Below are positions 2,284-28,667 of a stretch of 64,000 nt of DNA, one piece after another. A program made the position numbers and the translations under genes. Position 1 is the first letter of the stretch. Every line of letters begins with the position of its first letter. Origin of the DNA: Populus alba (taxonomy: Eukaryota > Streptophyta > Magnoliopsida > Malpighiales > Salicaceae); assembly GCF_005239225.2 (NCBI RefSeq), contig NC_133301.1, positions 8,184,318-8,248,317 on the forward strand, in the 5' to 3' direction. Below the pieces are notes generated by a model that was not told the DNA's origin, did not search any database, and was given only the letters and a program-made list of their open reading frames with translations.

Positions 2284-2288
2284 CGTAT
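2284..2288. repeat. Target-site duplication CGTAT (left)
   Basis: CGTAT directly abuts the TG start of the left LTR and is repeated at 14158-14162 directly after the CA end of the right LTR. This fixes the element at 2289-14157 and shows one clean insertion event. Confidence 0.95.
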
Positions 2289-4026
2289 TGATACGACCAA
2301 AAGCTTGATGTCTTCTCCCAAGTGCAGGAGTGTCGAAGTAATAAATAACCCGGCAAGACCGGGGTCGAACCACAGAGAGGTTAATTGTATAAATTATAAA
2401 TAACAAGACAACAACAACAACAACAATAACAACAACAATAATAACAATAATAATAACTATTATACTCAGTACGTGGCGTTGTTATACCTGAGAATGATCT
2501 AAAGATCGGGTCACAGGTTTCCAGCCTATATACTGAGTTTATGAAAAGATCAAATATATATATATTATGTAATATAAACAGAATGTAAATAATAATAATA
2601 ATAATAATAATGAAAGCAGAAGATGAAGAAATTAATGAGAACTTTGAGATGAAAGATTAACGTAAGGATTAAACAATGATAAAAACAAATGTCAAGGTTA
2701 GAGGATCCACTAATGGTACTTCAAACAAGTATAATATAAACTCTTATTACTCAATTGGAAACCACACATAAAGGAGGTTCCATTCAGATTATAAATTATT
2801 AACATGATTACATTAGTTATCTTATTCGAATAAAGCTAATACTTGTAAATGTTGGCAGGCATTCATGATTATAACTTATGTTAACAACAAATCAAGTTCC
2901 TTTCACAGCTCAGGTGTCGGTTATACCATACAGTATGAGCTATGAAAGTGCCAAGTATTTGTTGTACCAAGTGTTATACAACATAAATCTAGATTAACCA
3001 TTTAACAAGCAAAGTATTAAAAGTGAACAAGATAACAAATATAAAACATGTTAGTATCCAACGTTAAGGTCCATGTTAAGTTTATATTATACTTATTCTT
3101 ACACCATTAGTGTACCCTTTTCACCTTGACATAATTAACTTAGCTGAACATAATGAAAGAAAGAAACATAAATGAACAAGATAAGAACATAAATGAGAAA
3201 GACGTTAACTAAGTAAAAGAAAGGAAATGAAGTGCATAAACTTGATATTAATGAAAGAAAAGCATAAGCAATACAAAGAGAGAAAGCAAGAGCATGATCT
3301 TGATCTGGAAACCAAGATGCCTCAATACATGGTAAGTGCCTCCTTTTATAGGCCAAAATTTGGAACTATTGATTTGTTGACTAATTGATGAGTGGGTGGC
3401 CACATCTTGACTAGATAACAATCCTTATCTTCTTGTCTGATCAAGACGTCATTGCTAACATCATAATTTGCCCAGAATCCTCAAGAATGTTCTAGGAAAT
3501 TGTCTCAGCTTTCCAACAAAAAAAAAGATGAGGTCATTTGGACTTCTAGAACTCAAGATATGGGCTGAACACTAAATAGTGTTTGGGCTGCAGGACAGCT
3601 TCGGACTTCTTCGTTGTTCCTTCAATTTGGACTTCAAAACGACCTTTTCAAATCTTGGGCTCCTCATGAAAGTTGTAGGCCTTTGTCTTACCTTTCCATC
3701 CATATAAAGTGGACCTAAATCCGAAATCTAGAGCTCCAGATATGATCCAATTACCGAGCAATGTTCCGGTTTGGACTGCACCGACATCTCTTTTCTAAGT
3801 TTGGCCATCTCTTTGTCCTTTAACTTTCAATGCTTAAACTCATCAATCAATCCTTTTATTTATGTGATAGTCCTGCATTTAAAATGAGCATTTACCATAA
3901 ATTAAGGTATCTTATAATATCAAACTTGTTATTATAAAACATGCTTTAGTTAAGGAGTTATTGATACTTCAAGTGCAAAATGATGATATAAAACCTTGAT
4001 AAACATGCACTTTTAAGTATTAATCA
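2289..4026 (-). repeat. 3' LTR of the gypsy element
   Basis: A 1738-bp LTR that starts TGATACGACC and ends TTAATCA on the plus strand. It is nearly identical to 12420-14157. Differences seen: one A fewer in an A-run near 2577, one A more near 3525, and T versus C near 3966. It carries a trinucleotide (AAC/AAT) tract and a minus-strand TATA box at 3342-3350. A 73-aa frame within it is repeated in the other LTR and has no recognisable domain. Confidence 0.95.
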
Positions 4027-4028
4027 CA

Positions 4029-4040
4029 CCCCCCAACCAG
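4029..4040 (-). other. Polypurine tract of the gypsy element
   Basis: Read on the minus strand, the sequence just before the 3' LTR is ctggttgggggg, a purine-rich tract suited to priming plus-strand DNA synthesis. It ends two bases before the LTR. Confidence 0.8.
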
Positions 4041-4700
4041 CTTATTACTAGTCCCTAGTAATCTAAAGCGTTAAAATAGAGAAAACAATTTGCAAGTTCC
4101 ACAAAGCAAGGCATTCATCATTCAACTTCCATTAATCTATCCAGATAAACAAACTCTCATTAAATTTATATTCCTGCTTCATACTTCGTAAACAAGATAT
4201 TAATAAACCTTCTTTTTGTGTGCTCAATGAAAACATAGATGATGGGGCTTTTGTTGGAAGAAAACAATATTATGTTCAAATGTTTAAGGTGAACTTCCTT
4301 GGGTTGGGATTATTATTTTTCTTCTTCTTCTTCTTCTTTTTTTTTTTTTTTTTTTATCTTTTTTTTATATACACATACAACTTAAAACACAATGTATCTT
4401 TAACCCGTGTAACGAGTTTTAGGCTAATGACTCCCAGACCAGTTGATCTTAGGGCATTAGGTGTTGAGACACCCCTACGAGCTTAACAACTCGGGTTGCA
4501 GATACTGATACGTAGATAGTGCAATGTTTGATTCCCTTAAGCTTTTCTCCTTAACCCATGTAACAAGCTTTGGGCCAATAGCTCCCAAGTCAGTTGACTT
4601 TAGGGTATTAGGTGTTAAAAACACCCCTTCGGGCTTAATTGCTTAGGTTAGGGAGGCTACGAAACCAAACTTATCCACGTTTTATTATCATCAATACTAT

Positions 4701-4738
<38 letters not shown>

Positions 4739-5280
4739 AAATTATATACTATCCTTTTCCCTTAGTTGTTACCTTCAACAAAAGAACATAATTAATGTAA
4801 TAATCCAATGTGCAACCCACAATCATATGTTAAAGTGTGTGTGTGAAAATGAAGGTTTAATAATACTTGTTAAATGAGTATAAAAGCAGAATCAAGTGAT
4901 AACAATGTGAGAGTTTGTAAACCTGAATATTTCAAGAAGTATTATGATAGACCTTGGTAATGAAACTTACTAAGATGCGTCTCTAGAGTCAATAAAATTG
5001 ATTCCATACTCTGCCATCCTAATAACAATTTTGTCAAATGGTTTTAATAATAGCAAAAAACAGTTAGCAAGTTAGTATTTTTTTTTTTTTTTTTAAACTA
5101 CTACCCTCTCCCCCCAACCAAAACGAGACATTGTCCTCAATGTTCGAAGGTAGAAAGATAGAGTATAGAAGACATCACCTGAAACAGCGAACAATGACAA
5201 ACCTGAAACACACTTAAACAAACATAAGAAGTAACAAAACAAAATAATATGCTATTAATAAAACCAAAAGACACAAGGTT
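4041..5280 (-). repeat. Gypsy 3' untranslated region with tandem 151-bp duplication and T-tracts
   Basis: Region between the LOG stop codon and the polypurine tract. A unit starting taacccgtgt at 4401 is repeated, diverged, at 4552 (taacccatgt), giving a period of about 151 bp. Each copy contains agtcagttga-like text and a 'gcattaggtgttgagacaccc'-like piece. Three long T-runs (about 4320-4365, 4704-4737, 5073-5093) separate the blocks; on the sense strand they are A-runs. An 88-aa poly-Phe frame at 4220-4486 is an artefact of one T-run. Confidence 0.7.
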
Positions 5281-5934
5281 TCACAGATGAAGGCTCAAAT
5301 CTAATCTAAGCTTTTTACGGCTTTCCTTAGTTGACCAATCTAGACGACTCATGCAGGGATCAATGACAGGGATGAAAGATTGTAGTTGGTCAATCAATTG
5401 TTCAGCAGTAGCAGCAGAGATTATGATTCGTCGTGCCGAAGATGTTAGAAATTCCTGTTCCACAGCTTGATCAAGGAAAGACAGCAACTTATCATAAAAA
5501 CCATTAACATTTAACAAACCTATGGGTTTATGGTGAATGTGCAGTTGGGCCCAAGATGAAATATGAAAGATCTCTTCCAATGTGCCCAGACCACCTGGTA
5601 AGGCAATGAAGGCATCAGCATGGTTAAACATGGTATTCAGTCGGTCAGACATTGTTGGGACCTGTAGTTCTTCTCCAATTGTTTTTCCAATGATGTCCCC
5701 ATTTGCTAAAGCTTTGGGGACAACCCCCAAAACTTGACTGCCTCCTAAAAATGCAGCCATTGACACACCTCCCATTAACCCAAGGCTACCTCCCCCATAC
5801 ACTAAATGAATCTTTCTCTCAGCTAGTACCCGGCCAAGATGATTTGCTGATTCTAAAAACTCTTTTTCTTTCCCAGAACTGGATCCACCGAAAACACAAA
5901 TATTTCTTATATGATGACTTGAGGAACCTGCCAT
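5281..5934 (-). CDS. LOG: LONELY GUY-type cytokinin riboside 5'-monophosphate phosphoribohydrolase, retrotransposon-borne
   Basis: A 217-aa ORF for a LOG enzyme. LOG enzymes hydrolyse cytokinin riboside 5'-monophosphates to the free active cytokinin base and ribose 5-phosphate in the cytosol. The fold's landmarks are in order: GGSSSGK near residues 16-22, YGGGSLGLMGG at 46-56, catalytic Arg98 in MSDRLN, and PGGLGTLEE at 113-121 with Glu121. Length and residue numbering match plant LOG proteins. The frame is uninterrupted, whereas host LOG genes contain several introns, so the copy probably came from a spliced RNA. It lies in sense orientation between integrase and the 3' LTR, 245 bp downstream of the zinc-finger ORF, with a TATA-like box 65-73 bp before the ATG. 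Unlike gag-pol it has no frameshift, which fits selection or recent capture. Activity is untested. The older label 'lysine decarboxylase-like' refers to the same fold. Confidence 0.93.
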   Translation of the reverse strand: MAGSSSHHIRNICVFGGSSSGKEKEFLESANHLGRVLAERKIHLVYGGGSLGLMGGVSMAAFLGGSQVLGVVPKALANGDIIGKTIGEELQVPTMSDRLNTMFNHADAFIALPGGLGTLEEIFHISSWAQLHIHHKPIGLLNVNGFYDKLLSFLDQAVEQEFLTSSARRIIISAATAEQLIDQLQSFIPVIDPCMSRLDWSTKESRKKLRLDLSLHL

Positions 5935-5998
5935 TTCTACACACTTCTATATTTGATGAATATATGGGATGAGTAGAAATGAAGGGAAGGAAGAGAAG

Positions 5999-6007
5999 AA
6001 TTTATAG
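5999..6007 (-). promoter_or_regulatory. TATA-like box upstream of LOG
   Basis: On the minus strand the text ctataaattc lies 65-73 bp before the LOG start codon, followed by a pyrimidine-rich leader. Spacing and sequence fit a plant Pol II core promoter. LOG may therefore be expressed independently of the LTR, either from a captured host promoter or from one that evolved inside the element. A CT-run at about 6066-6082 lies further upstream. Prediction from sequence only. Confidence 0.45.
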
Positions 6008-6179
6008 ATGAAAAAGTGAAAATGCAATCATACCACCTATATGTAGGCCAGCTGTAGTCTCACAAACTCTCTCTCTCTTTATTAATTATTTATTTTGAAA
6101 AAGCATGTATGTACAGGTAGTTGTGATTGTGGCTCACATCTTCCCTTGGTTTTACGTCCAAGAACGGCTTAAACGCCCT

Positions 6180-6758
6180 CTATGGGTCGGGGATAGGCTT
6201 CCCATCCAGTTTTCTTAAAAACTGGCAAACAGGGTCTTTTTTAGTCAGATTCCCAAGACTAAGTCGATCATGTTCTTTATGGAATTGTGGCCATAAATCA
6301 TGAATTACACGATGTACATCTCCACTAGGATGCGTCTCAAGGGTCAACAAAAGATTATCTAAAGACCCCTTACTCAGGCCATCCTTAATGAATTGTATCT
6401 TATCTTCACGGTTTACAGATACCATTCCTAAAGAACGACATGTTGCATTACAAGTCCATCTGGCACATCTGTGACAGACTTTCAGTCGTTTTGCACGACG
6501 TTTCTTTGCAAAAGTGCTTTTACCTGTTCCAGGCATGTGTGAAATGAAAGAATTGGATGACTCACCTGATAATCGAACCTTTGCTTCAATTAACCAACGG
6601 ATATCTTCAGGAATTCCATGATTCATTAACAACCTCAATCTTGCACACCTAGCACGGTAAATTTTATTAATCGCATTTGGAGGCAAAGCGGGAAAATACC
6701 TTTTCAACTTTTCAAGAGTGGTGTCCATTTTCAAAAGAGAATTAGAGAAGCGATTCAA
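6180..6758 (-). CDS. Carlavirus-type zinc-finger nucleic-acid-binding protein homologue, retrotransposon-borne
   Basis: A 192-aa intact ORF. Residues 77-107 combine a GTGKST-FAKKRRAKR basic stretch with a compact Cys cluster (C95-x2-C98-x4-C103-x3-C107), followed by a GMVS...FIKDG segment. This arrangement is characteristic of the small cysteine-rich nucleic-acid-binding proteins at the 3' end of carlavirus and related Betaflexiviridae genomes, several of which act as RNA-silencing suppressors. Residues 1-70 and 130-192 are extra and unrecognised; the whole is clearly longer than the viral proteins. A second Met at residue 11 could be the true start. It lies in sense orientation 164 bp after the integrase stop. 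Possible splice acceptors precede it. Inference: captured from a plant RNA virus, or a shared ancestor, and possibly used against host silencing. A chance match to a basic zinc finger is the alternative. Confidence 0.72.
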   Translation of the reverse strand: MNRFSNSLLKMDTTLEKLKRYFPALPPNAINKIYRARCARLRLLMNHGIPEDIRWLIEAKVRLSGESSNSFISHMPGTGKSTFAKKRRAKRLKVCHRCARWTCNATCRSLGMVSVNREDKIQFIKDGLSKGSLDNLLLTLETHPSGDVHRVIHDLWPQFHKEHDRLSLGNLTKKDPVCQFLRKLDGKPIPDP

Positions 6759-6817
6759 AGAAGGAAGAAAGAGCTAAGAATTATACAAACATATACAGAT
6801 ATCAGTTATTTGGGAAA

Positions 6818-6828
6818 CTGAAAAAACC
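6818..6828 (-). promoter_or_regulatory. Candidate 3' splice site before the zinc-finger ORF
   Basis: The minus strand reads ggttttttcag here, a good polypyrimidine tract plus AG, 60-70 bp before the zinc-finger ORF. A second, weaker acceptor (attcttag) lies near 6773-6780. Env-like genes of plant Athila elements sit in the same position and need a spliced RNA or an internal start to be translated. Prediction only. Confidence 0.3.
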
Positions 6829-6922
6829 GACTTAAGTCACGGAGTACCGTTATCCGCCATTTGACCGGGGTGAAAGAGAGACTAGCAAAACAACAAAACA
6901 CAAAACAATGTGAGAAAAAGAA

Positions 6923-7147
6923 TCAATCTTTATATACAGGATCACTCAATTCAATAGAGTCATTTTCAACCGAAAAATTATCAAAATAAACTTTCAAACG
7001 ATGCCCATTTACCTTGAAAACATTGCCATTCTTTGGATTCTCAATATCACAGGCCCCATATGGATACACATGTTTCACAATAAAAGGACCGCTCCATCTT
7101 GTTCTTAGTTTTCCAGGAAATAAATGGAGTCGAGAATTATAAAGCAA
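6923..7147 (-). CDS. Integrase C-terminal part (gypsy pol, split by frameshift)
   Basis: 74 aa that continue the integrase, with the C-terminal motif [11 protein letters not shown] and the ending [11 protein letters not shown], usual for the integrase tail of Athila-type pol. The frame is offset from the integrase core by one extra base in the T-run at 7171-7176. The initial Met is incidental. No chromodomain is visible, as expected for this lineage. Confidence 0.85.
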
Positions 7148-7751
7148 GACTTTTTGACCAACATTGAATGTTTTTTCTCAGTATTTTCTTGTCATGAAAC
7201 TCTTTAATTCTTGCTTTATGAATTTTTGAATTGTCATATGCATCATTTCTTATTTCCTCAAGCTCATTTATTTGCAATTTTCGCAGCTGACTAGCATCAT
7301 CAAGGCTTGAATTGAAAGCTTTAATAGCCCAATAAGCTTTATGTTCAATTTCCACAGGCAAGTGACAAGGTTTTCCATAGACTAGTCTATAAGGTGACAT
7401 ACCTAATGATGTTTTATAAGCAGTTCGATAAGCCCAAAGTGCATCATTAAGTCTTAAAGACCAGTCTTTCCTATTAGGGTTCACTGTTTTCTCCAAGATC
7501 TGTTTGAGCTCCCTATTAGCAAGCTCGACTTGTCCACTTGTCTGAGGGTGATAAGGGGTGGCAACTTTATGTGTGATTCCATATTTCTTCATTAAAGACT
7601 CAAATGGCTTGTTGCAAAAGTGTGTTCCACCGTCACTTATCATGGCTCGAGGGATTCCAAATCGACTTAAAATGTTTTCTTTCAAAAACTTTATCACTAT
7701 TTTGTGATCATTGGTTCGACTTGGAATTGCCTCTATCCATTTTGAAAACAT
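7137..7751 (-). CDS. Integrase catalytic core (gypsy pol, split by frameshift)
   Basis: 204 aa of integrase core (rve domain). FSKWIEAIP at the start, then ISDGGTHF and [11 protein letters not shown], hold the second Asp and the Glu of the DDE triad; the first Asp lies in the preceding frame (GIDFMGPFP). Continuity with the upstream pol frame is broken by one extra base each in the A-runs at 7783-7786 and 7745-7748 (plus strand). The product would insert the cDNA into chromosomal DNA. As written the protein is split; if the runs are assembly errors it would be whole. Confidence 0.9.
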
Positions 7752-10700
7752 AATCTACTGCGACCAATATGTACAAGAAACCAAAATGATGGAGGAAATG
7801 GACCCATGAAATCTATACCCCAACAATCAAAGATCTCAATGACAAGAATAGGGTTTAAAGGCATCATGTGACGTTTCGAAATAGATCCCAACTTTTGACA
7901 ATTTTCACAAATTTTACAGAATGCATGTGAGTCTTTGAACATGGTGGGCCAGTAAAATCCACTTTGTAAGATTTTTGCAGTTGTCTTTCTTGATGAGAAA
8001 TGACCCCCACATGCCTCAGAATGACAAAATTTAATGACACTACTTACCTCATTGTCAGGAATGCATCTTCGAAATATTTGATCAGGACAATATTTGAATA
8101 AATAAGGGTCATCCCAATAAAAGTTCTTCACTTCGTTCAAGAACTTTCTTTTGTCTTGGGTACTCCAATGAGCTGGCAATTGTCCTGAAACAAGAAAATT
8201 AACAATATTAGCAAACCAAGGCATCGTAGAGACAGAAAATAAAGATTCATCAGGAAAGTAGTCATCGATTGGTGTAATGTCAGATCTCGAATCGGTTGTC
8301 AATCTTGACAAATGATCCGCGACAACATTTTCGGTGCCTTTCTTGTCTTTGATTGTGATATCAAATTCTTGAAGTAACAAAATCCACCGCACCAATCTAG
8401 CCTTAGAATCTTTCTTAGAGAGAAGATATTTCAATGCTGCATGATCACTAAAAACAACAACAGGTGAGCCAACAAGATAAGATCTGAACTTGTCACATGC
8501 AAATACTACTGCAAGTAATTCTTTTTCAGTGGTAGTGTAATTCATTTGAGCACTATTTAAAGTTTTACTTGCATAGTAAATCACATAAGGTTTCTTATCT
8601 TTCCTTTGTCCCAAGACAGCACCCACGGCATAATCACTAGCGTCACACATTATTTCAAAAGGTAATGACCAATCAGGAGGTTGAATGACAGGAGCAGAAG
8701 TAAGCAAGTTTTTAAGTTTAACAAAGGCTTCCTCACAATGTTCAGTCCATTCAAAAATATTATCCTTTGTTAGAAGGTTACTCAAGGGCTTAGATATTAC
8801 ACTAAAATCTTTGATGAACCTTCTGTAAAAACCAGCATGTCCTAAGAATGATCTAACATCTTTAACAGATTTTGGTGTTGGTAAGTTGGCAATTAACTCG
8901 ATTTTAGATTTGTCAACCTCAATTCCTTTCGATGAAACAATGTGACCAAGTACAATGCCGTTTGTTACCATAAAGTGACATTTTTCCCAATTCAGTACAA
9001 GATTCTTCTCTTCACACCTGCTCAAAACCTTTTCTAAGTTAGTCAAACAATCATCAAATGAATCACCAAAAACAGAAAAATCATCCATAAAAATTTCAAG
9101 AAAACGTTCAACCATATCACTGAATATGCTAAGCATGCATCTTTGAAACGTGGCTGGTGCATTACATAATCCAAAAGGCATCCTTCGATATGCAAAAGTA
9201 CCAAATGGACATGTGAAAGTAGTCTTCTCTTGATCTTCCAATGCAATTTCAATTTGATTGTAACCTGAATAACCATCTAGGAAACAATAAAATTCATGAC
9301 CTGCAACTCTTTCTAGGATTTGGTCCATGAAAGGTAAAGGGAAATGATCTTTTCTAGTCATTGAATTAAGTTTCCTATAGTCAATGCACATGCGCCAACC
9401 CGTAACAGTCCTAGTTGGAATTAACTCATTTTTCTCATTTGTTATCACAGTGACTCCAGACTTTTTGGGTACAACTTGGGTAGGACTTACCCATTTGCTG
9501 TCAGAAATAGGATAAATGATTCCATTATCTAGAAGCTTAATGACTTCATTTTTCACTACTTCTTTCATATTAGGATTAAGCCTTCGTTGCATTTCTCTAG
9601 AGGGTTTAGCATTTTCCTCCAAATAAATCCTGTGTGTGCAAATCAAAGGGCTAATTCCTTTTATGTCAGCTATGGTCCATCCTAATGCATTTTTGTGCAT
9701 TTTCAAAGTCTGTAATAACTTACCTTCTTGATGCGCATTAAGTTTGGACGAGATTATTACCGGAAAAGTTTCATTTTCTCCCAAAAATGAGTATTTGAGA
9801 TTAAATGGTAACGGCTTCAATTCAGGTTTTGGTGGTTGAACACTTGAAGGTATGGGCTCAATTGATCGTGGTGGCAATTCTTCAATTTGTGGTCTCCAAT
9901 TGCATGCCTTAGATTCCTGAAAGTAGACCATTTGCAAATCATCAGATTCATCAATCTCAGTTTCACTAGAAGTGGTTTGAAATTGATCATGAACTAATTT
10001 TTCAATAAAGTCAACTTCCTGTAAATCATTATCATCTCCAGGTTGCTTGTAAATGTTGAAAATATTCATCTCCAATGTCATGTTTCCAAATGATAGCTTC
10101 ATCAGTCCATTCCTACAATTAATCAATGCATTAGAAGTGGCAAGAAATGGACGTCCTAAAATGACAGGAATTGAATTACATGCTTCAACAGGTTGCGTGT
10201 CCAAGACAACAAAATCCACAGGATAAATGAATTTATCAACTTGTACCAACACATCTTCAATTATTCCTCTAGGCACTTTTACAGATCTATCGGCGAGTAA
10301 AAGAGTTACAGAGGTTGGTTTTAACTCACCTAGATTGAGACTCTGAAAAACTGAATATGGAAGTAAATTCACACTAGCTCCAAGATCAAGTAAGGCTCTT
10401 TCAATTTTATGTTCTCCAATAAAGCAAGAAATTGTAGGACAACCAGGGTCTTTATATTTCAAAGCATTATTGTTCTGAAGAATGGCACTTACTTGTTCGG
10501 CTAAAAAGGCTTTCTTTTTCACATTCAATTTTCTCTTCACAGTGCACAGATCTTTCAAAAATTTAGCATAGGAAGGAACCTGTTTAATAGCATCCAACAA
10601 AGGTATATTGATCCTTACCTGTTTGAAAATTTCAAAGATTTCAGAGTTGTGACTAACTTTCCTTTGTTTGATCATGGCATGAGGAAATGGAAGTGCTGGC

Positions 10701-10849
10701 GGGGAATCAGCCTTTTCTTTGCAATGTTCAGGTTCAACCCCTTCCTTACCCTCAGAGATAGACTCATCATCTTTCTCACAAGGTTCAAGAATAGGTTTTT
10801 CAATAACCTTACCACTACGAAGAGTGATGACTGATTTGACTTGATCCAT
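7733..10849 (-). CDS. Gypsy Pol: protease, reverse transcriptase, RNase H, integrase zinc finger
   Basis: 1038 aa. An aspartic protease with DLGAS near residue 155; a reverse transcriptase at about 430-610 with [19 protein letters not shown] and the catalytic FMDD near 588; an RNase H at about 680-800 beginning [12 protein letters not shown] and ending VADHLSRL; the integrase HHCC finger at about 935-985 (H...H...CKICENC). The N-terminus LRSGK is the usual start of the protease region in Athila-type elements. No internal stop occurs. Gag is out of frame just upstream because of one extra base in the A-run at 10919-10922; downstream the integrase core is shifted. In this lineage gag-pol is normally one frame, so the splits are breaks, not design. 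Confidence 0.95.
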
Positions 10850-10865
10850 GTGTTGGCTTCCAGAA

Positions 10866-12188
10866 CTACTTGCATTTGCATGGTATTGCCCCTTTGGATT
10901 TTGCTGTGGTTGAGAAGGAAAACTTACCTTTCTCTTGGAAACTGAGAGCAGATGTTAATTTTGCAAGAGCATCTTTAAAATCAGTCATGCTTTGAGCAAG
11001 TTGAGTGTTGATTGTCTCCTGCTTTTCAATGAATGCATGCAATGTTTCCTCAAAATTTCTTCTAGGAGGTGGAGCATAAGGAGGTGCATATCCATGAGAA
11101 TTTTGGAAATTATGGTGTGCTTGAAACGGTGGATGTGAAGTTTGTGCATTGTTGCTATCACTCTTCCAACTAAAATTTGGGTGATTTCTCCAACCAGGGT
11201 TATATGTTTGTGAGTATGGGTTATGGTTGGGTCTTTGGAAACTGTTTAAAGCATGGGCTTGTTCATGGAGGCATTCCTTGAAAGAAGGCAAAGTTGGACA
11301 ATCATTGGTTGCATGCTCATTTGTTTCACAGATTTGACACACAATGTCTTGAACAGATTTTAATTGACCACTCTTTTTTAATTCTAGTGCCTCGACTTTT
11401 CTAGCTAAAGATGCAAACTTGGCTTGGAGGTCATGATCTTCCCTAAGGTTGTGCATACCCCCACTAGATGTATGAGGTTGAGTTTTACCTGGTGCCTCAT
11501 AAGTACCTGTGGTGTCCCAATTTTGAGCATTTTCGGCTAGCAAGTCTAGGTACTCCATTGCTTCATTAGGGTCTTTATCTTCAAAGGTTCCATTGCACAT
11601 CAATTCAACCATTTGCCTATCTCTAGGTGTTAAACCTTCATAAAAATGTGAAACCAATCTCCATGTTTCAAAACCATGATGTGGGCAAGTATTAAGCAAA
11701 TCTCGATACCTATCCCAACATTGGTAAAATGTTTCTCCTGGCTTTTGAGTGAAAGTGATGATTTGTCTTTTGAAAGAGTTTGTTCTATGAGATGGAAAAA
11801 ACTTCTTTAAAAATTGTTGTTGCATATCATCCCAAGCACGAATGGATCCTGGTCTCAAATTTTGTAGCCATGTTTTAGCTTTATCTTTTAATGAAAAAGA
11901 AAAAAGCTTTAATCGAATGGTGTTCATGCTACAATTTGAGTCATTATAGGTATTACAGACCTCCTCAAATTCCCTTAAATGCAAGTATGGATTTTCTAAG
12001 TCTAAACCATGAAAAGATGGTAAAAGTTGAATAATGCCTGGCTTAAAATTAAAATGAGATGCATCAGGAGGGAAAACTATGCATGAGGGTGCACTTGTTC
12101 TTGTGGGATTCATGTGGTCTCTAAGTGTTCTCATACGGTTATTCTCATTATTCTCATTATGAAGTGATTGATTATCTTCTTCGGCCAT
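10866..12188 (-). CDS. Gypsy Gag (capsid and zinc knuckle)
   Basis: 440 aa from the Met at 12188 (MAEEDNQS); the frame stays open upstream to 12314, but that part is low complexity. It contains the retrotransposon Gag fold (LKDKAKTWL, FLKKFFPSHRT, ETFYQCWDRYRDLL, CPHHG) and one CCHC knuckle, CQICETNEHATNDC (C-x2-C-x4-H-x4-C), which binds RNA in the virus-like particle. The last about 19 residues are read in the wrong frame after an extra base at 10919-10922; the proper continuation lies in the frame of pol. Confidence 0.92.
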   Translation of the reverse strand: MAEEDNQSLHNENNENNRMRTLRDHMNPTRTSAPSCIVFPPDASHFNFKPGIIQLLPSFHGLDLENPYLHLREFEEVCNTYNDSNCSMNTIRLKLFSFSLKDKAKTWLQNLRPGSIRAWDDMQQQFLKKFFPSHRTNSFKRQIITFTQKPGETFYQCWDRYRDLLNTCPHHGFETWRLVSHFYEGLTPRDRQMVELMCNGTFEDKDPNEAMEYLDLLAENAQNWDTTGTYEAPGKTQPHTSSGGMHNLREDHDLQAKFASLARKVEALELKKSGQLKSVQDIVCQICETNEHATNDCPTLPSFKECLHEQAHALNSFQRPNHNPYSQTYNPGWRNHPNFSWKSDSNNAQTSHPPFQAHHNFQNSHGYAPPYAPPPRRNFEETLHAFIEKQETINTQLAQSMTDFKDALAKLTSALSFQEKGKFSFSTTAKSKGAIPCKCK

Positions 12189-12395
12189 ATTTTCTGAAAA
12201 TGATGAGGATACCCTACAAAGTCTACCACTTAATGTACGTGACCAAACTCTCATGCACGTGTAAGAAGAGAATAAAAGCAAGAAAAGAAAATAAAAGAAA
12301 AAGAAACAAAACAAAACAAAGGAAACAAAAATAGATAAAATGAAAAGTGAAAAGAGAAAATAAATTAAATATTATAATTTATACAAGAATTTACC

Positions 12396-12413
12396 TCCCC
12401 GGCAACGGCGCCA
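12396..12413 (-). other. Primer-binding site, tRNA-Asp type
   Basis: On the minus strand this reads TGGCGCCGTTGCCGGGGA, complementary to the 3' end of plant tRNA-Asp(GUC) plus CCA. It lies 6 bases inside the 5' LTR. Athila-type elements use this primer. Confidence 0.9.
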
Positions 12414-12419
12414 AAAACT

Positions 12420-14157
12420 TGATACGACCAAAAGCTTGATGTCTTCTCCCAAGTGCAGGAGTGTCGAAGTAATAAATAACCCGGCAAGACCGGGGTCGAA
12501 CCACAGAGAGGTTAATTGTATAAATTATAAATAACAAGACAACAACAACAACAACAATAACAACAACAATAATAACAATAATAATAACTATTATACTCAG
12601 TACGTGGCGTTGTTATACCTGAGAATGATCTAAAGATCGGGTCACAGGTTTCCAGCCTATATACTGAGTTTATGAAAAGATCAAATATATATATATTATG
12701 TAATATAAAACAGAATGTAAATAATAATAATAATAATAATAATGAAAGCAGAAGATGAAGAAATTAATGAGAACTTTGAGATGAAAGATTAACGTAAGGA
12801 TTAAACAATGATAAAAACAAATGTCAAGGTTAGAGGATCCACTAATGGTACTTCAAACAAGTATAATATAAACTCTTATTACTCAATTGGAAACCACACA
12901 TAAAGGAGGTTCCATTCAGATTATAAATTATTAACATGATTACATTAGTTATCTTATTCGAATAAAGCTAATACTTGTAAATGTTGGCAGGCATTCATGA
13001 TTATAACTTATGTTAACAACAAATCAAGTTCCTTTCACAGCTCAGGTGTCGGTTATACCATACAGTATGAGCTATGAAAGTGCCAAGTATTTGTTGTACC
13101 AAGTGTTATACAACATAAATCTAGATTAACCATTTAACAAGCAAAGTATTAAAAGTGAACAAGATAACAAATATAAAACATGTTAGTATCCAACGTTAAG
13201 GTCCATGTTAAGTTTATATTATACTTATTCTTACACCATTAGTGTACCCTTTTCACCTTGACATAATTAACTTAGCTGAACATAATGAAAGAAAGAAACA
13301 TAAATGAACAAGATAAGAACATAAATGAGAAAGACGTTAACTAAGTAAAAGAAAGGAAATGAAGTGCATAAACTTGATATTAATGAAAGAAAAGCATAAG
13401 CAATACAAAGAGAGAAAGCAAGAGCATGATCTTGATCTGGAAACCAAGATGCCTCAATACATGGTAAGTGCCTCCTTTTATAGGCCAAAATTTGGAACTA
13501 TTGATTTGTTGACTAATTGATGAGTGGGTGGCCACATCTTGACTAGATAACAATCCTTATCTTCTTGTCTGATCAAGACGTCATTGCTAACATCATAATT
13601 TGCCCAGAATCCTCAAGAATGTTCTAGGAAATTGTCTCAGCTTTCCAACAAAAAAAAGATGAGGTCATTTGGACTTCTAGAACTCAAGATATGGGCTGAA
13701 CACTAAATAGTGTTTGGGCTGCAGGACAGCTTCGGACTTCTTCGTTGTTCCTTCAATTTGGACTTCAAAACGACCTTTTCAAATCTTGGGCTCCTCATGA
13801 AAGTTGTAGGCCTTTGTCTTACCTTTCCATCCATATAAAGTGGACCTAAATCCGAAATCTAGAGCTCCAGATATGATCCAATTACCGAGCAATGTTCCGG
13901 TTTGGACTGCACCGACATCTCTTTTCTAAGTTTGGCCATCTCTTTGTCCTTTAACTTTCAATGCTTAAACTCATCAATCAATCCTTTTATTTATGTGATA
14001 GTCCTGCATTTAAAATGAGCATTTACCATAAATTAAGGTATCTTATAATATCAAACTTGTTATTATAAAACATGCTTTAGTTAAGGAGTTATTGACACTT
14101 CAAGTGCAAAATGATGATATAAAACCTTGATAAACATGCACTTTTAAGTATTAATCA
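12420..14157 (-). repeat. 5' LTR of the gypsy element
   Basis: Near-identical partner of 2289-4026, 1738 bp, TG...CA ends. As the 5' LTR it should supply the promoter for gag-pol. The minus-strand text cctataaaaggagg at 13474-13482 is the likely TATA box, so transcription would start about 25-35 bases further down the minus strand. Confidence 0.95.
13474..13482 (-). promoter_or_regulatory. LTR promoter TATA box
   Basis: TATAAAAGG on the minus strand. The same box is kept in the 3' LTR (3342-3350) and in the diverged solo LTR on the plus strand (54405-54413), which supports a function. Confidence 0.65.
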
Positions 14158-14162
14158 CGTAT
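14158..14162. repeat. Target-site duplication CGTAT (right)
   Basis: Matches 2284-2288. The host spacer resumes at once with cttatcttgcagg, which aligns with the uninterrupted paralogous spacers near 390 and 17880. Confidence 0.95.
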
Positions 14163-18063: not shown

Positions 18064-18300
18064 TTGATTAATGTTGAAATTAAAGCATATTATCCCTCCT
18101 CAAGCTTATGGGGCAATGGTCTCATGGATCCATCTCATAGAAAAAACAAAAAACGCTTGATAGCAATAGTTTCATGGACCATCCCACTGGTCTATATCGT
18201 GAAAAAAATACAAATGACAATGATCTTAATAACCATCCCACTAACCCACATCGTGGAAAAAATGCAGATAGCAATGGTCTCATAGACCCATCCGACACTG
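18064..18300. repeat. Spacer duplication block B, copy 2
   Basis: Partner of 784-1010, with four motif units ending in tgg/tcgtggaaaaa or similar. A 73-aa frame follows from the repeat and is not considered a gene. Confidence 0.55.
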
Positions 18301-20726: not shown

Positions 20727-21404
20727 ATGGAGAAGGAAGATTCGAGCATGATAAAGCTCACTTCCTCAAATTATTTTCTATGGAAAACAATGATGGAGGA
20801 TCATTTATATTGCAATGATTTGGCTTTACCAATTGAATGTAAAGGAATAAAGCCTGATGAAATGGATGATGTAAAATGGAATGGGCTTAATAGAAAGGCT
20901 ACCGCTAATGTTAGAAAATGGGTATCTTCTAAGTCTATTAATCATATTTCTCAAGAACATGACTGCTATATAGTTTGGAAGATGTTGGAAGAAACCTTTT
21001 CCAAGGAGAGTGCACAAAACAAGGTTTTTCTAATTAGAGACCTTGTGAATTTGAAGTATAGAGATGGTGAAGATGCTTTGGTGCATGTAAATGTATTCCA
21101 AGGGTTCTTGAATCAGCTGTCATTGATGAATCTTGAGTTAGCTGATGAAATGCAAGCATTAATCCTATTGAGTTCATTGCCAGATAGTTGAGAGACTTTG
21201 GTAGTGTCACTTAGCAATTGTACTCCGAATGGAAAGATCACTTTGAAAACAGTGAAGGATTGTATCCTCAATGAAGAGAAGAGGAGGAAAGGGACAAGCA
21301 CTTCCGAGTCTCATGCACTTGTTACAGAAAGTCGAGGGAGAAGTCCAAGCAGGTTCTCTCATGTCACAAGCCAAGGTGATCAAAGGGGAGGTGAAAGCAA
21401 TTAA
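20727..21404 (+). pseudogene. Copia gag (broken)
   Basis: Starts MEKEDSSMIKLTSSNYFLW, typical for copia Gag, and continues with a KMLEETFSKESAQNKVFL segment. An in-frame TGA at 21189-21191 follows SLPDS where a Trp codon is expected; the frame then continues ETLVVSLSN to a stop at about 21402. The zinc knuckle and protease that should follow are missing: within about 30 bp the sequence jumps to the pre-integrase domain. Confidence 0.88.
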
Positions 21405-23045
21405 ATATTGCTCTACTGATTTATGGCATAAACAGCTTGGACACTTGAGTGAGAAAGGCCTTGGCATCCTTGCCAAGAAGAACTACCTTCCATTGAAAGG
21501 TATGAACCTGAACATATGTACTCATTGTTTAGTTGGTAAACAACATAGAGTCGCATTTCAAAGATCACCTTCACATAGAAGATCACATGTTCTTGATTTA
21601 GTTCATACTGATGTTTACTCTATGATTGATAAGTCTCTTGGAGGTGCATTGTACTTTGTTAGTTTTATTGATGATCACTCCAGGAAAATTTGGGCCACTT
21701 GTTTGAAATCCAAAGATCAGGTGCTTGATGTCTTTAAGGATTTCCATGCCAGAGTTGAAAGAGAAACTGGTAGAAAGCTGAAATGTATTTGAGGTGACAA
21801 TGGTGGTGAATACAGAGGTCCTTTTGAGAAGTATTGCAGGGAACATGGTATCAAGTTGGAGAAGACAGTTCCTAAGACTCCACAATAGAATGGAGTGGCT
21901 GAGAGAATGAATAGAACCATTGTTGAAAGAATTAGATGTATGCTCTCTCATGCAAAGTTGTCTAAGTCCTTTTGGGGTGAGGCAATGAAGACTGCAGTTG
22001 CCATGATCAACCTTTCTCCATCGGTTCCTCTTGATTTTGATGTTCCAAATAGAGTTTGGAAAGGAAAGGATGTCTCTTATGCACACTTGAGAGTGTTTGG
22101 ATGCAGAGCATTCATACATGTTCCTAGAGATGAAAGGTCTAAGCTTGACAACAAGAAAAAACAATGTATTTTCTTGGGCTCTGAAGATGATGAGTTTGGC
22201 TATAGGTTGTGGGATCCAAAGGAGAAGAAAATTGTGAGAAGCAGAGATGTTATCTTCTTTGAAGATCAAACCATTGAAGACTTTGAACAAAAGGAGAAAA
22301 CAGAGTCTACTACTTTTATTCCATCTAATTCAAATCCAAGACCTACTCCACAATTACCTTTGATGCCTGCTAATCACGAGGGAGATTTGCAAAATGATGA
22401 TAATGGTGGTTTTCTTAATGAGCCATTAGTTGGTGATCTTGAATCAGCTAATGATGATATTGATGTTATTCCTGAACAAGTTATGCAGGAAGCTCCTGAT
22501 GAGCCACAATTGAGGAGGTCAACTAGACCTCGCCAACCTTCCACCAAATACTCTCCTTATGAGTATGTGCTGGTTACTGATGGGGGAGAGCCAGAATGCT
22601 TTGATGAAGCTATGTCACATGAGAAGAAAAGTGAGTGGTTGAAAGCAATGCAAGAAGAGATGAAATCCTTGCATGAAAATCATACTTTTGAGTTAGTGAA
22701 GCTTCCTAAAGGTAAGAGAGCACTCAAGAACAAATGGGTGTTCAGGTTGAAAATTGATGAACATTGCTCACAACCAAGGTACAAGGCAAGATTGGTTGTG
22801 AAAGGTTTCGGTCAGAAGAAGGGTATTGATTTTGAAGAAATCTTTTCACCAGTGGTCAAGATGTCTTCAATCCGAGTTGTGCTTGGTTTAGCTGCTAGTT
22901 TGAATCTTGAAGCTGAACAACTTGATGTGAAAACTGCCTTTCTCCATGGTGATTTAGATGAAGAGATCTACATGGAGCAACTTGAAGGGTTTGAAGCAAA
23001 AGGTAAAGAGCAGTTAGTTTGCAAGTTGAAAAAGAGCCTATATGG
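21405..23045 (+). pseudogene. Copia integrase and N-terminal reverse transcriptase (broken)
   Basis: Pre-integrase domain with LWHKQLGHLSEKG and CTHCLVGKQHR, integrase with DLVHTDVY, FIDDHSRKIW and GDNGGEY, then the RT start KNKWVFRLK, ARLVVKGF and AFLHGDL. Stops interrupt it at about 21790 (TGA where an Arg codon is usual) and 21886 (TAG where Gln is usual). The frame then runs to the nested solo LTR, which cuts the RT after KLKKSLYG; the text resumes as YGLKQAPRQWY at 27541. Confidence 0.9.
23041..23045. repeat. Target-site duplication TATGG (left)
   Basis: TATGG precedes the solo LTR and is repeated at 27540-27544 directly after it, inside the copia RT gene. Confidence 0.92.
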
Positions 23046-24855
23046 TGTCATAACCCAATTCTGGGTTATTCCCCAAAATTCACTTTTTTTAAAAAAAAAT
23101 AAAATAATAAAATAAAATAAAATAAAGGCTGGCAATGTGAAGAAAGCTAATAAAAAAAGACTGCAAAAATAGGCAAAAATCAAGCTGCAATTTTCAGAGG
23201 AATTTCAAGGCCTAATTGTACCCCATTATGCCCAAGAATAGAAAAATGCAAATTCGAAGGTCAAATTAAATGATTATTGGATGAATTTGCATAAAAAGTA
23301 AGTCCAATGACATAATGAAATTTTTAATGGGCCCATTTGATTTAATCATTGGCCAAATTAAATTTTAATTATGTTTAAGAATTAATTTAGGTCCAATTGA
23401 AGGTTTAATTAAGTGCAAGGACTTAATTATACTTTAAATGGGTCAAATTAATTTAGGGGCTTAATTGGTGAAAAATTAAGTTTGGGAGCCTAATTTGGAC
23501 TTAATTGAAAAGATTGAAATTTTAAGATCAAATTTAATTTTTACCAAGTGAATTGATTGAAAAAAATTGAGGGATCAATTTTGAGGTCCGAAAAATACTT
23601 TGCCTATAAATAGCAGCCTACAAAAATCAGTAAAGGGGGGTCATTTTGTCAGGGGGATAATTTTGGCACTTTCAAAAGAAAAAAACACAGAAAACCTAAC
23701 CCTAAAAAACCTCTTCCCTTGACACCAGCCGCCGCTCGCTGGTTTTTATTTTTTGGCTCCCTGAGCCGCTCCCCGGTTTGATTTCTCTGGCTCTCGAAAC
23801 TAGCTGGTCGCCCCCCTCTCTTTGGAGAAAACAGAGACCCCTCTCCCTTTGCCTTGCCAAAGACAAGCCGACGACTTCTCCAGCCTTCACAAAAAAGGAA
23901 AGCCACCGCCTGACCTTCCTTCTCCCTTGGTTAAAAAAAACTGGTCGCCGTTTCCCCCCTCCAAATTCAGTTTTCTTCTTCCTTCAGCCCTTCACCTGAC
24001 ACTATTCCCCGAAGCCATTTACAGCACCATCTCCTTCTTCTCAACCAAAAAACCAGAGGCTCAAGCCCCCTCGGTTTTCCCCATTGCTACAAACCAGCAG
24101 CAGATCCAGCCGAAGCCCCCTTTCTCAGCAGCGTCTTCTTCTCCTCTCAATAGCAGCGCCTCCACCCAAATCAACCCGCAGCTCCAGCGCCTCCCAGGTC
24201 TTCTCTCCTCAGCCGAAGCTTCCCTTTTCCTGTTGAAGATGACCGCTGCTTCCCTAGCTTGGACCCATGGGTTTCTTCTCCTCTCAACCATCGCCTCCTA
24301 GTTTCAGCGAACACAAACGACCACCGCCAGCCGAAGAGGAAAGAAGGGTCGGCGATTTACCCGATCTAGCCGGTGACCGACCCCACGAGTCGCCCGGCGA
24401 GTTACCCAACACTCCACAACAAATCTGCTACCCGGAGAAGAACGAGAGAGAAGCAGATCTAAACAAATCTAAGAAGGAGAGAGTCGACTGTGTTGTCTGT
24501 GTTGTTGCGTTTTTTTGTTGTTTTGCAGGTCACAGCCTCAACGCCGGTGAAGGAGAGAGGAAGCCGTGACTGAACCCTGCTTGCTCGACTTTTCCAGCAG
24601 TGGCGCGTGAATCCACACGCCGCCAGTGACGGTGGCACGTGGGAAGACGCGCTGCCACTGTTCCCAGCACGGTTCTGGTGGTGCAAAAGGGCTTTCCTGC
24701 AATTTTTGGAGTTTTAAGGACTATTTTGTAAATCTGATTGTAATTTTAATGTAATTTTTGTTTATTTGTTTTAAATTTGTATTTTGTGTAAATGTAAATG
24801 TAAATGTAAAAGAAAAGAAAAGGGAAAAAGAGAAACAAATAATAATAAAAAAAAA

Positions 24856-26975
24856 GGGTATTGAATGGTATTAGACAAGGAGATCCTTTATTCCCCTATC
24901 TTTTTATTGTTTGCATGGAATATTTCTCCAGGATGCTCCAAATTGCAGCTCTCTCTCCTGGTTTCCGTTTTCATCCGAAATGTGACACGTTGGGCATTTG
25001 TCATCTTGCATTTGCTGATGATGTTATCCTGCTTTCCCGGGGAGATCATCATTATGTATCCACCTTGTTTCAGCAATTGCATATCTTTGGGAGGACTTCG
25101 GGGCTGGAAATCAATGCATCCAAATCATCAATTTTCTTCGGAGGTGTTCCAGATAGTGTAAGGCAGCTTATTCTTTCAGACACGGGATTTGTTGAAGGGT
25201 CCTTTCCTTTCCGATATCTAGGCGTCCCCCTCAGTCCCCACAGACTTCTAGCCAGCCAGTATTCTCCTCTCATCCATACACTTGACTCTGCTATTCAAAG
25301 CTGGATGGGCAAGCATCTCAGTTATGCAGGAGGCTGGAGCTGCTCAAGTCTGTTTTATATGGCATTATTCAATTCTGGCTGAACATTTTCCCGGTTCCGG
25401 AAACTGTTGTTAAGCAACTCATTTGTCTTTGCCGCAATTTCTTGTGGTCTGGCTCCATCTCCAGGAGCAAATCTGCATTGGTTGCTTGGCGCACCGTTTG
25501 TCTTCCTAAAGATGAAGGTGGCTTGGGTTTCTTTGATCTCAGAGCTAGAAATAACAGTTTTCTAGCTAAACACATCTGGAATATTCATCTTAAGGCTGAT
25601 TCAATTTGGATTCAATGGATCCATCATTACTATATACGTTCCCAATCTTTTTGGGACACTGAAGCTCACCTGAATTCCTCTCCTTTGTGGAAATCAATTA
25701 TCAACTTTCGGGACAAGCTCGTTGAAACGGGAGGTGGCCAGTCCCAAGTTCTCTCCTTGATGGAAAACTGGTGCAGCTCTACTGGATCTTTCACAGCCAA
25801 TGCTTATGAATTCTTGCGGCTTAAAAGCAATCCTGTGTACTGGAGGCATATAGTTTGGGAGCCGTGGTCTATGCCAAGACATAGTTTTACTCTATGGCTG
25901 GCAGCATTGGGAAGACTTCAAACCAAAGACAGACTTCATTTCCTCCAAACGGATTTAACATGCGTTTTCTGCCAGGACGAAGAGGAGACACACAATCACC
26001 TCTTCTTCAGCTGCCCTTGGATATCCTCTCTTTGGCAAAAGATTAGGAATTGGCTGCACATAACAAGACGTATGTCTTCTTTAAGTAGTGCCATTCGGGG
26101 GCTGAGTCGAGTTGGAAATAATGCTCATGGCAGAATGAGGCGGGCATCACTTGGTATTCTTGTTTACATTATCTGGGAGGAGAGGAACAAACGAGTATTT
26201 GATTGCAAAAGCATTTCTCTCCCTTCTCTATTCCGCAAGTTTCAGACACTGTTCTTCTTGGTGTTCCATTTCCATGAACAGGATCACTCATCTCTCCATG
26301 TTGGCTTGTAACCTGTTGTGTGAGATTGTTGTCGTGCATGGAGGGGTCTCCCCTGTCGTGCTGCTGCTTGTGGAACTGACTTTGGTTGATCCTCTTTAGG
26401 ATTGTTGGGGGCTTCGTCCGGGGGCAGCTGGAATCTCTGCATGGTCTCGCAATGTTTAGCTTGTCTCCTGATTGGTTGGTGCTTAGCTTTAGGCCCTTTT
26501 CCACATGGGCCTTTATTCAAGTGGCAGGTTTACTCATTGGTTCTGCTTTTGGCTGGATTCTCTGCATGGCTTGTATAACTTATTCTTGTGCTGAGCGGCT
26601 TGGCTGTTCTTGGCGTATGCTTGCTGGTTCTTTACTCCAGGTTTCTTAGCCGTTGGTGACTCATCAGCTTCCGACTTGTTCTACTGGATTGCTGTTTTAT
26701 TTCGTGGAAGCTCAGCTTCTGTTCTGGTCTTTCAGCTCTGCTTGATTTGTCTCTCTTTTGGTTTGGTTGGGAACATTGTATTCTTGAGTTCCTCTCTTAG
26801 GCCTTAGTCTGCTGATTTATTTTTCCAATGGTTTGTTGTTTTGCTCTATGAGGGAGTCTGTTCCCTTTTATGATGCCTTTTTTGTTCTGCTGGTTTACAG
26901 CTTGTATCGCAAGCTTGGCTTGCTCTTTTTTTATCTATATTATTTCTTACATTTGATCAAAAAAAAAAAAAAAAA
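24856..26975 (+). mobile_element. 5'-truncated L1-type LINE
   Basis: Begins inside ORF2 and ends in a poly(A) tract at 26958-26974, preceded by ttacatttgatc. The 3' untranslated region (about 26312-26957) resembles that of the minus-strand L1 at 55930-58143, ending in near-identical text before the A-tail. It is truncated at its 5' end, as is usual for target-primed reverse transcription. A clear target duplication could not be fixed because both flanks are A-rich. Confidence 0.85.
24859..26311 (+). pseudogene. L1 ORF2 C-terminal half: reverse transcriptase and zf-RVT domain (broken)
   Basis: The translation opens at the RT motif GIRQGDPL, then LAFADDVILL (the catalytic FADD box), INASKSSIFF and YLGVPL. 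One lost base near 25330 shifts the frame; the second frame carries VAWRTVCLPKDEGGLG, LWLAALGRLQTKDRL and a zinc-binding C-x2-C...H...C pattern (CVFCQDEEETHNHLFFSC), the zf-RVT domain of plant LINEs. Stop at 26309-26311. The endonuclease and the start of the RT are absent. Confidence 0.9.
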
Positions 26976-27540
26976 GAGGGTGTGTGTGTTTGTTTTTTTG
27001 TTATACATGGAATTGAATAAAAAAATGTATTTAATATTTTAATGCACAAATATCTAATGATAGATAAAATCATGTTGTATTTTTCATGAAAATGTAAGAT
27101 CATGTTTCAACATATATTCTGGGAATTAATAACTGATTTATCAAAGCCTTGGATGTGGGCTAAAATATTATTTTTAAAATTACATCAAGCCCATGAAGCT
27201 TGAAAGTGAATGTGTGGTGCGTATTTTATTTGCGAATGTTTTTCTAGGATAAAATTGCAAGAATAAAGAAGGATTTAATATTTTGATTGGATCACGGTGT
27301 AGAAAGTACAAACTTGTACAGAAGTTGTCTTTCTAAAATCCGATGAAAAGATAAAATTTTTGAAACTTCTTTAACACATCAAGTCCACGGAGCAGCTTAC
27401 CTCAGGTAGGGTGCGTTAGGGCTGCTAATACCTTCCACAATCAGTCCCTTACCCGCGAATCTCTGACCATGACCAGTAAATCAGGGTTTCCTAGTAACCT
27501 CGCCAGCCGATGTCGTGCGGGAGTTTCCGACGTGCGACAT

Positions 27541-28280
27541 ATGGTTTAAAGCAAGCTCCAAGACAATGGTACAAGAAGTTTGATTCTTTCATGGTGGATC
27601 ATGGTTATGACAGGACCACTTCTGATCATTGTGTATTTATGAAAAGGTTTCCTGATGGAAACTTTATTATTCTCCTATTATATGTGGATGATATGTAGAT
27701 TGTTGGCCATGATGCTAAGAAGATTCAGATGTTAAAGGAAGAGTTAAGCAAGTCTTTTGCAATGAAAGACTTAGGACCGGCAAAACAGATTCTTGGCATG
27801 AAGATCACACGTGACAGGAAGAAGGAGAAACTTTGGCTATCTCAGGAGAGATATCTTCAAAAGGTACTTGAGAGATTCAACATGAGCAACTCCAAACCGG
27901 TTTGTTCTCCACTTGCAAGCCACTTTAAACTAAGTTCTAAGCAGTGTCCTTCAAGTGATGCAGAAAGAGATGAGATGAAAAAGGTTCCTTATGCATCCGC
28001 AGTTGGTAGCTTGATGTATGCCATGGTTTGCACAAGGTCGGATATAGCTCATGCAGTTGGTGTGGTTAGTCGGTTCCTCTTCGATCCTGGTAAAGAACAT
28101 TGGTCAGTAGTGAAATGGATACTCAGGTATCTCAAAGGTACTTCTAGTTTCAGCCTATGTTTTGGTAATAATAAACTTGTGTTGGATGGATACACAGATG
28201 CAGATATGGCTGGTGATGTTGATTCTAGAAAGTCCATATCAGGATACTTGATGAAGTTTGCAAGGGGAGCAGTCTCATGA
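27541..28280 (+). pseudogene. Copia reverse transcriptase, C-terminal part (broken)
   Basis: Resumes the copia RT with YGLKQAPRQWYKKFD, then LLLYVDDM, the catalytic YVDD box. An in-frame TAG follows at 27696-27698. It then continues LSKSFAMKDLGPAKQILGM, YASAVGSLMYAM and GYTDADMAGD, ending at a TGA (28278-28280) where a Trp is usual. Confidence 0.92.
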
Positions 28281-28289
28281 CAATCAAGG

Positions 28290-28667
28290 TTGCAAAAATG
28301 TGTTGCATTATCCACTACAGAAGCTAAATATATTGCTCTTACTGAAGGGGGCAAAGAGTTGTTATGGATGAAGAAGTTCTTACATGAACTTGGCCTAGTT
28401 CAAGAGAACTTTGTGTTGCACTGTGATAGTCAAAGTGCAATCCATCTCAGTAAGCATCCAACTTTTCACTCTCGATCAAAGCACATTGAGGTTAAATATC
28501 AATGGATTCGAGATGCTATGGAGATGAAGTCATTTGTTGTTGAGAAGATCCATACCGATGACAACGTGTCAGATATGATGACCAAACCTCTACCGAGAGA
28601 GAAGTTTGAGTTTTGCAAAAAGGAAGCAGGCTTGTCAGAGCCTCCTACATTGAAGCTTACATGTTGA
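28290..28667 (+). pseudogene. Copia RNase H
   Basis: Same frame as the preceding part after the stop: ALSTTEAKYIALTEGGKELLW, LHCDSQSAIHLSKHP and the end MTKPLPREKFEF. This is the usual end of a copia polyprotein. The domain itself is whole. Confidence 0.92.

Follow-up and report, generated by a model that had tools for sequence, protein, structure and literature searches.

Paired ORFs for a carlavirus-type nucleic-acid-binding protein and a LOG-family protein in an abundant Athila-like retrotransposon family of white poplar

Extra open reading frames (ORFs) are common in plant Ty3/gypsy retrotransposons and are mostly of unknown nature. In 2011, Steinbauerova et al. reportedly found two Athila-like elements similar to LOGL4. 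Non-autonomous long terminal repeat (LTR) elements that carry only gag constitute the TR-GAG/LARD type. According to the available sections of two papers, Athila elements carry env-like or further ORFs in the interval from pol to the 3' LTR (PMC6317226, PMC7264820), and angiosperm Tat elements have an additional RNase H (aRH) between RNase H and integrase (PMC6317226); the extra ORFs tallied in the 2019 survey were those with 250 codons or more (PMC6317226), a size that neither of the two ORFs described here reaches. A YgdH/LOG domain is recorded in Ty3/gypsy LTR elements of Citrus sinensis, C. clementina and Populus trichocarpa, a finding that agrees, in the part of the report available, with Steinbauerova et al. 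2011, which it cites (PMC9289625). Here, an Athila-like Ty3/gypsy family that is abundant in white poplar (Populus alba) is found to encode a carlavirus-type nucleic-acid-binding protein (NABP) together with a LOG-family protein, both identifiable, and the pair is family-wide rather than a one-off. The copy on which the analysis is based is a young element with nearly identical LTRs on the minus strand (14157 to 2289) of a 64,000-nucleotide stretch of P. alba contig NC_133301.1 (positions 8,184,318 to 8,248,317 of the forward strand), hereafter the window. Both extra ORFs lie between integrase and the 3' LTR in the same sense as the element, which has the following features (basis of assignment in brackets):

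2284..2288, strandless: target-site duplication (TSD) CGTAT, left copy (sequence)
2289..4026, minus strand: 3' LTR, 1738 bp (pairs with 12420-14157)
4029..4034, minus strand: polypurine tract, which reads as a G-run beside the 3' LTR in the element's orientation (sequence)
5281..5934, minus strand: LOG-family ORF, 217 amino acids, intact, without intron, sense, with a PGGLGTLEE motif and a basic LxLxL tail (PF03641)
5935..6179, minus strand: NABP-LOG spacer (sequence)
6180..6728, minus strand: NABP ORF, 182 amino acids, intact, sense (PF05515 and PF01623; cysteine columns in the alignment)
7137..7751, minus strand: ORF of the integrase core, which in the window copy is not in frame with pol (PF00665)
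7733..10849, minus strand: pol, comprising protease, reverse transcriptase (RT), RNase H and H2C2 (PF00078, PF17917, PF17921, PF13650)
10866..12314, minus strand: gag (PF03732)
12396..12413, minus strand: primer binding site TGGCGCCGTTGCCGGGGA (sequence), which we take to be of the tRNA-Asp type
12420..14157, minus strand: 5' LTR, 1738 bp (pairs with 2289-4026)
14158..14162, strandless: TSD CGTAT, right copy (sequence)

These coordinates, the LTR pair and the Pfam matches confirm a sequence-only reading of the window, in which a TSD-bounded young gypsy element carried a sense NABP and an intact LOG between integrase and the 3' LTR. A single mismatch and two gaps separate the two LTRs of the window copy, each of 1738 bp. 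Comparison of its ORFs with those of other copies shows that the frame changes where gag meets pol, ahead of the integrase core and within the integrase C-terminus; because these break gag-pol, only NABP and LOG are intact among its genes. In the fetched pieces of 11 full-type copies, the open frame of the integrase core spans 362-469 amino acids in eight and 54-241 in the remaining three. A TATA-like sequence (CTATAAAT) in the NABP-LOG spacer starts about 73 bp ahead of the LOG start codon. The layout is that of Athila (OTA) elements and leads us to call the element Athila-like: sense extra ORFs between pol and the 3' LTR, a 5-bp TSD and no aRH (the canonical RNase H match ends at residue 829 of pol, and H2C2 is matched at residue 930). 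The Athila ORF-1 domain, present in only 16% of Athila elements and not required, is not among the Pfam matches of five ORFs. Unlike the Athila elements of these papers, so far as their available sections go, the poplar element has two identified small ORFs, each of fewer than 250 codons. Very long A/T runs in its 3' spacer (4220-4760, 5080-5100) vary among copies.

The P. alba genome (416 Mb in 96 contigs) was searched for further copies. The LOG query gave 1781 first-look candidates, of which 150 were scored (all at least 96% identical, 12 with a stop); the NABP query gave 1737, of which 150 were scored (all at least 95% identical, 15 with a stop); both totals are unscored beyond these 150. 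The LTR-end query gave 2288 first-look candidates, 40 of them scored. At 38 LOG places, taken at about every fourth row of the LOG list, a family LTR was always found within the fetched piece (38/38), and NABP was fully spanned at 25 (at least five of these with a stop), broken at six and a remnant at seven. Conversely, the LOG stretch beside NABP was fetched for 20 of the every-fourth rows in the NABP list; LOG is present at 16 of these places and missing at four.

Both ORFs are under purifying selection. Variants confined to a single copy were taken to approximate changes after insertion, and variants common to at least three copies to approximate changes in the transposing lineages; LTR DNA of 33 copies, read as codons in three frames, served as the control. 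Copies containing indels were excluded, as were two duplicate loci (kept: LOG 45/46, NABP 26, LTR 33), and variants were treated as independent, which they are not. Variants in at least three copies comprise 19 synonymous and 12 nonsynonymous changes in LOG (45 copies), 19 and 5 in NABP (26 copies), 11 and 3 in the protease of copies that lack RT (18 copies), and 32 and 75, 36 and 67, or 31 and 75 in the three frames of the LTR control (33 copies). The per-site ratio of nonsynonymous to synonymous variants (pN/pS), single versus shared, is 0.65 versus 0.19 in LOG, 0.60 versus 0.07 in NABP, 0.39 versus 0.07 in the protease of RT-less copies and 0.74-0.94 versus 0.50-0.66 in the LTR read as codons, from the same numbers of copies. 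For variants in at least two copies, comparison with the LTR gives Fisher p values of 0.0001-0.003 (LOG) and 0.0005-0.006 (NABP). Purifying selection is concluded because shared variants are mostly synonymous in both ORFs, unlike those of the LTR read as codons.

The pair also occurs outside Populus. Relatives of NABP at about 70% identity are found in Xanthoceras and Acer, and relatives of LOG at 61-64% identity in Sapindaceae. The Acer yangbiense gene model P0256 joins a piece of NABP to a matching spacer and to LOG in the poplar order; its spacer (KAFKLLLDVKPEEDVSHNHNY) matches the sequence after the poplar NABP stop (RAFKPFLDVKPREDVSHNHNY) over about 21 codons. The Xanthoceras LOG model P0216 holds 48 residues that resemble the start of the window pol (54% identical). 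The sequence-only reading had regarded ORFs absent from all other copies, or decaying neutrally, as the marks of a one-off passenger; neither is found, because the pair recurs throughout the family, is shared with Acer and is under purifying selection. A tree built from 38 LOG proteins separates 22 transposon-type from 16 host-type rows with a split support of 100/100; the host-type rows include no Populus host LOG, and for the Reevesia, Melia and most nameless rows a location in transposons is putative. Three P. trichocarpa and P. nigra proteins named LOGL10 (P0217, P0241, P0293) group with the transposon LOGs, which suggests that in these cases transposon ORFs have probably been mistaken for host genes in annotation.

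The family is structurally heterogeneous. Among the 38 sampled LOG places, 11 possess an integrase core (full-length copies), 22 have an RT-less junction and five are unclassified. In RT-less copies the reading frame of the protease runs straight on into the H2C2 region, and the junction is alike in 25 matched frames except for single residues, which suggests a single deletion. Class B copies are RT-less with NABP and LOG kept; class A copies have a second deletion that reaches into NABP, with LOG kept; class C, found at four of the 20 places sampled through NABP, has a common 770-bp deletion, window 6089 to 5318, that removes LOG except its last codons, three of the four places having the class B layout without an integrase core beside NABP and one having integrase. 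LOG-less places were considered as the ancestral state and rejected as such: because the last ~12 LOG codons remain at the junction, they are deletions. The spacing of LTR pairs, taken from scored LTR matches, is about 10.13 kb in the window copy, 7.05-7.09 kb in class A (for example L027 and L048) and 7.83 kb in class B, where it was seen once (L028).

Between RT-less copies and the window copy, which was the sole full copy in this comparison, the protease region diverges at 14% of synonymous sites (pN/pS 0.29). A phylogeny true to class had been expected and was rejected: the tree of LOG plus the 3' region (36 copies) does not group the copies by class (15 changes versus a shuffled mean of 15.8; as low in 85 of 200 shuffles), and full copies taken by themselves show slight clustering (8 changes versus a shuffled mean of 10.3; as low in 31 of 500). 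Because the protease of RT-less copies has diverged, yet the LOG-plus-3' tree does not track class, 3' modules seem to pass between full and RT-less copies; the exchange would take place by template switching after co-packaging. RT-less poplar copies resemble the TR-GAG/LARD type in having LTRs, keeping Gag and protease and having lost RT, and differ from it in keeping accessory genes and seeming to swap 3' modules with full-length relatives. New here are RT-less partner subfamilies that retain and seem to recombine the 3' module, one without NABP and another without LOG.

The carlavirus-like character that had been ascribed to NABP is borne out by matches to PF05515 (31.8 bits, cut-off 23) and PF01623 (26.9 bits, cut-off 20.9), both above the gathering score, and by a basic motif (RRAKR) followed by a four-cysteine zinc finger (C-X2-C-X4-C-X3-C) that are kept in most of 34 relatives. 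NABP shares the basic motif, the finger and both Pfam families with carlavirus cysteine-rich/nucleic-acid-binding proteins (CVB p12, SPCFV NaBP); unlike them, it has 182 amino acids with N- and C-terminal parts beyond the viral match and is encoded by a retrotransposon; its relatives occur in Populus, Xanthoceras and Acer. A scan of viral contigs with the NABP alignment gave 22 pattern matches, none of which was confirmed. Carlavirus cysteine-rich proteins suppress RNA silencing; SPCFV NaBP is a silencing suppressor, and CVB p12 is both a weak suppressor and a transcription factor that causes hyperplasia (PMC12172455, available sections).

The window LOG scores 132.6 bits against PF03641 (cut-off 27), exceeds the curated cut-offs of PF03641/TIGR00730 and contains the PGGxGTxxE motif; it falls below the cut-off of the NCBIfam equivalog NF058542 (115.1 bits versus 300), as does the Xanthoceras protein (127.5 bits). 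The residues that bind the prenyl group are Met96, His97, Lys100, Glu125 and Trp129 in CgLOG numbering (PMC4979012, in the part available). In 54 ungapped P. alba copies, compared with 16 host-type LOGs (14 LOG7-type and two from Arabidopsis), His97 is replaced by Ser (50/54), Lys100 by Leu (54/54) and Glu125 by His (54/54). The sequence-only reading had called LOG a cytokinin-activating enzyme; the catalytic pair is indeed kept (Arg 53/54, Glu 54/54), but cytokinin release by the Populus transposon LOG appears doubtful because three of the five prenyl-pocket residues differ. The remodelled pocket may point to an unknown nucleotide substrate.

The explanation that we favour, tentatively and with somewhat less than even confidence, is that NABP and LOG, under purifying selection, act in trans as a shared kit that makes host cells more permissive for the family. 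A joint host-directed function is preferred because both proteins would point to the nucleus and to cell proliferation. NABP would enter the nucleus via its basic motif and, like the carlavirus cysteine-rich proteins, would bind nucleic acid and dampen RNA silencing and/or activate host growth genes. LOG, directed by its basic tail, would cleave an adenine-nucleotide monophosphate so that cells keep dividing, its substrate being a cytokinin precursor in the ancestral form and possibly a changed one in Populus. RT-less and one-gene copies would ride along and amplify, because the products of NABP and LOG would serve every copy in the cell. Several observations weigh against this explanation. 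Neither ORF is needed in cis, because class A has lost NABP and class C has lost LOG. LOG is ungapped at only nine of the 16 NABP-sampled places that have it (six stop-free, three with a stop) and has frameshifts or indels at the other seven. The LOG copies were mostly chosen by similarity to the window LOG, and in nine LOGs chosen via NABP the contrast in pN/pS between single (0.38) and shared (0.24) variants is non-significant (p 0.56). NABP variants in exactly two copies show the opposite trend (2 synonymous versus 9 nonsynonymous or stop). The pairwise pN/pS of LOG is 0.45 in class A (7 copies, 42 ordered pairs) versus 0.19 in 12 full copies, and LOG may therefore be under less constraint in copies that have lost RT and NABP. 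The fold prediction for NABP is of low confidence (pLDDT 53), the prenyl pocket of the window LOG reads M, S, L, H, W, three of five differing from the host type, and in Acer P0256 the NABP part lacks the start and the finger and LOG lacks the catalytic Arg, the loss of which marks this model as a decayed copy. The silencing and dividing-cell interpretation of the sequence-only reading is partly supported, through a selected, family-wide pair shared with Acer, and is weakened by the altered prenyl pocket and by the dispensability of each ORF in cis.

If NABP simply suppressed silencing and LOG released active cytokinin, the element would multiply in dividing, germ-line-bound cells. The retained LOG fold and catalytic residues agree with this, as do the silencing-suppressor activities of the viral relatives of NABP (PMC12172455, available sections) and the presence of all five prenyl-site residues in four Xanthoceras rows and two Sapindales-like transposon LOGs; the Ser, Leu and His substitutions in Populus do not, and we consider this account fairly unlikely. 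The same substitutions would be expected if LOGs of the LxLxL subclade had left cytokinin activation, either because the remodelled pocket cleaves another adenine nucleotide or because the basic LxLxL tail, which is EAR-like, binds a TOPLESS-type corepressor. LxLxL is present in 14 of the 15 tree rows with a changed pocket, both traits are missing from the 14 LOG7-type and two Arabidopsis LOGs, the pocket appears to have changed in steps, first K to M/I with E to Q and later K to L/M, E to H and H to S, and the tail is identical in 50 of 54 P. alba copies. This too is judged unlikely: P0272 has a changed pocket without LxLxL, 94 further rows include one host-type pocket with LxLxL and a few changed ones without it, the tail has low pLDDT, and any effect of the changed residues is putative. 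Were NABP a cofactor of the virion or of RNA, acting in packaging, as a chaperone or in nuclear export, with LOG as incidental cargo, a basic zinc-finger protein adjoining pol, more constrained than LOG among variants in at least three copies, would be readily explained; LOG, which is constrained too and lies beside NABP in the Acer model, would not, which renders this alternative improbable. That both ORFs are passengers, intact merely through the youth of the copies, accords with the nearly identical LTRs and with the frame breaks and deletions that occur in each ORF, but is very improbable given the predominance of synonymous shared variants relative to the LTR control, the order and spacer repeated in Acer, and the Sapindaceae relatives at 61-64% (LOG) and about 70% (NABP) identity.

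An extended form of the shared-kit explanation, which we hold with low confidence, is that a two-protein kit for nuclear reprogramming of the host has belonged to the lineage since before the Populus and Acer elements parted, that LOG gained first a basic tail and then the LxLxL tail and new pocket, and that full, RT-less, NABP-less and LOG-less copies form a multipartite system sharing products and swapping 3' modules. If the kit works, an enzyme of a plant hormone pathway and a virus-type factor have long been turned on the host by a transposon. Since both ORFs are identifiable and selected, occur together in two plant orders and exist in very many copies, the contribution of extra ORFs to a retrotransposon can be tested directly by enzyme and silencing assays.

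Part of the novelty that had been claimed for the element is qualified by prior work. Gypsy elements with a LOG-type domain have already been published, and the Citrus and P. trichocarpa elements resemble the poplar element in having a LOG-family domain inside a plant gypsy element, Populus included; the available account of them is silent on NABP, the pair, selection on LOG, pocket changes and RT-less partners (PMC9289625). No report of NABP or of the NABP-LOG pair in retrotransposons was found in a literature search outside of which most subscription papers lay. The same source describes orchid Ty3/gypsy elements that likewise gained an RNA/nucleotide-related host-type enzyme, an m6A demethylase, and reached many copies; the enzyme is a different one, and no viral-type second gene is mentioned in the part available (PMC9289625).

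Elsewhere in the window, direct repeats up to 90% alike (784-974 and 18074-18262, about 17.3 kb apart) flank the element. A degraded Ty1/copia element (20727-28667; Retrotran_gag_2, RVT_2) contains a reverse transcriptase fragment of the long interspersed nuclear element (LINE) type (24861-26311). They are followed by a broken receptor-like protein gene with leucine-rich repeats (41310-45129, minus strand) and by hAT-like transposase pieces (48685-50497, plus strand) recognised by eye, the first of which, the only one scanned, has no Pfam match.

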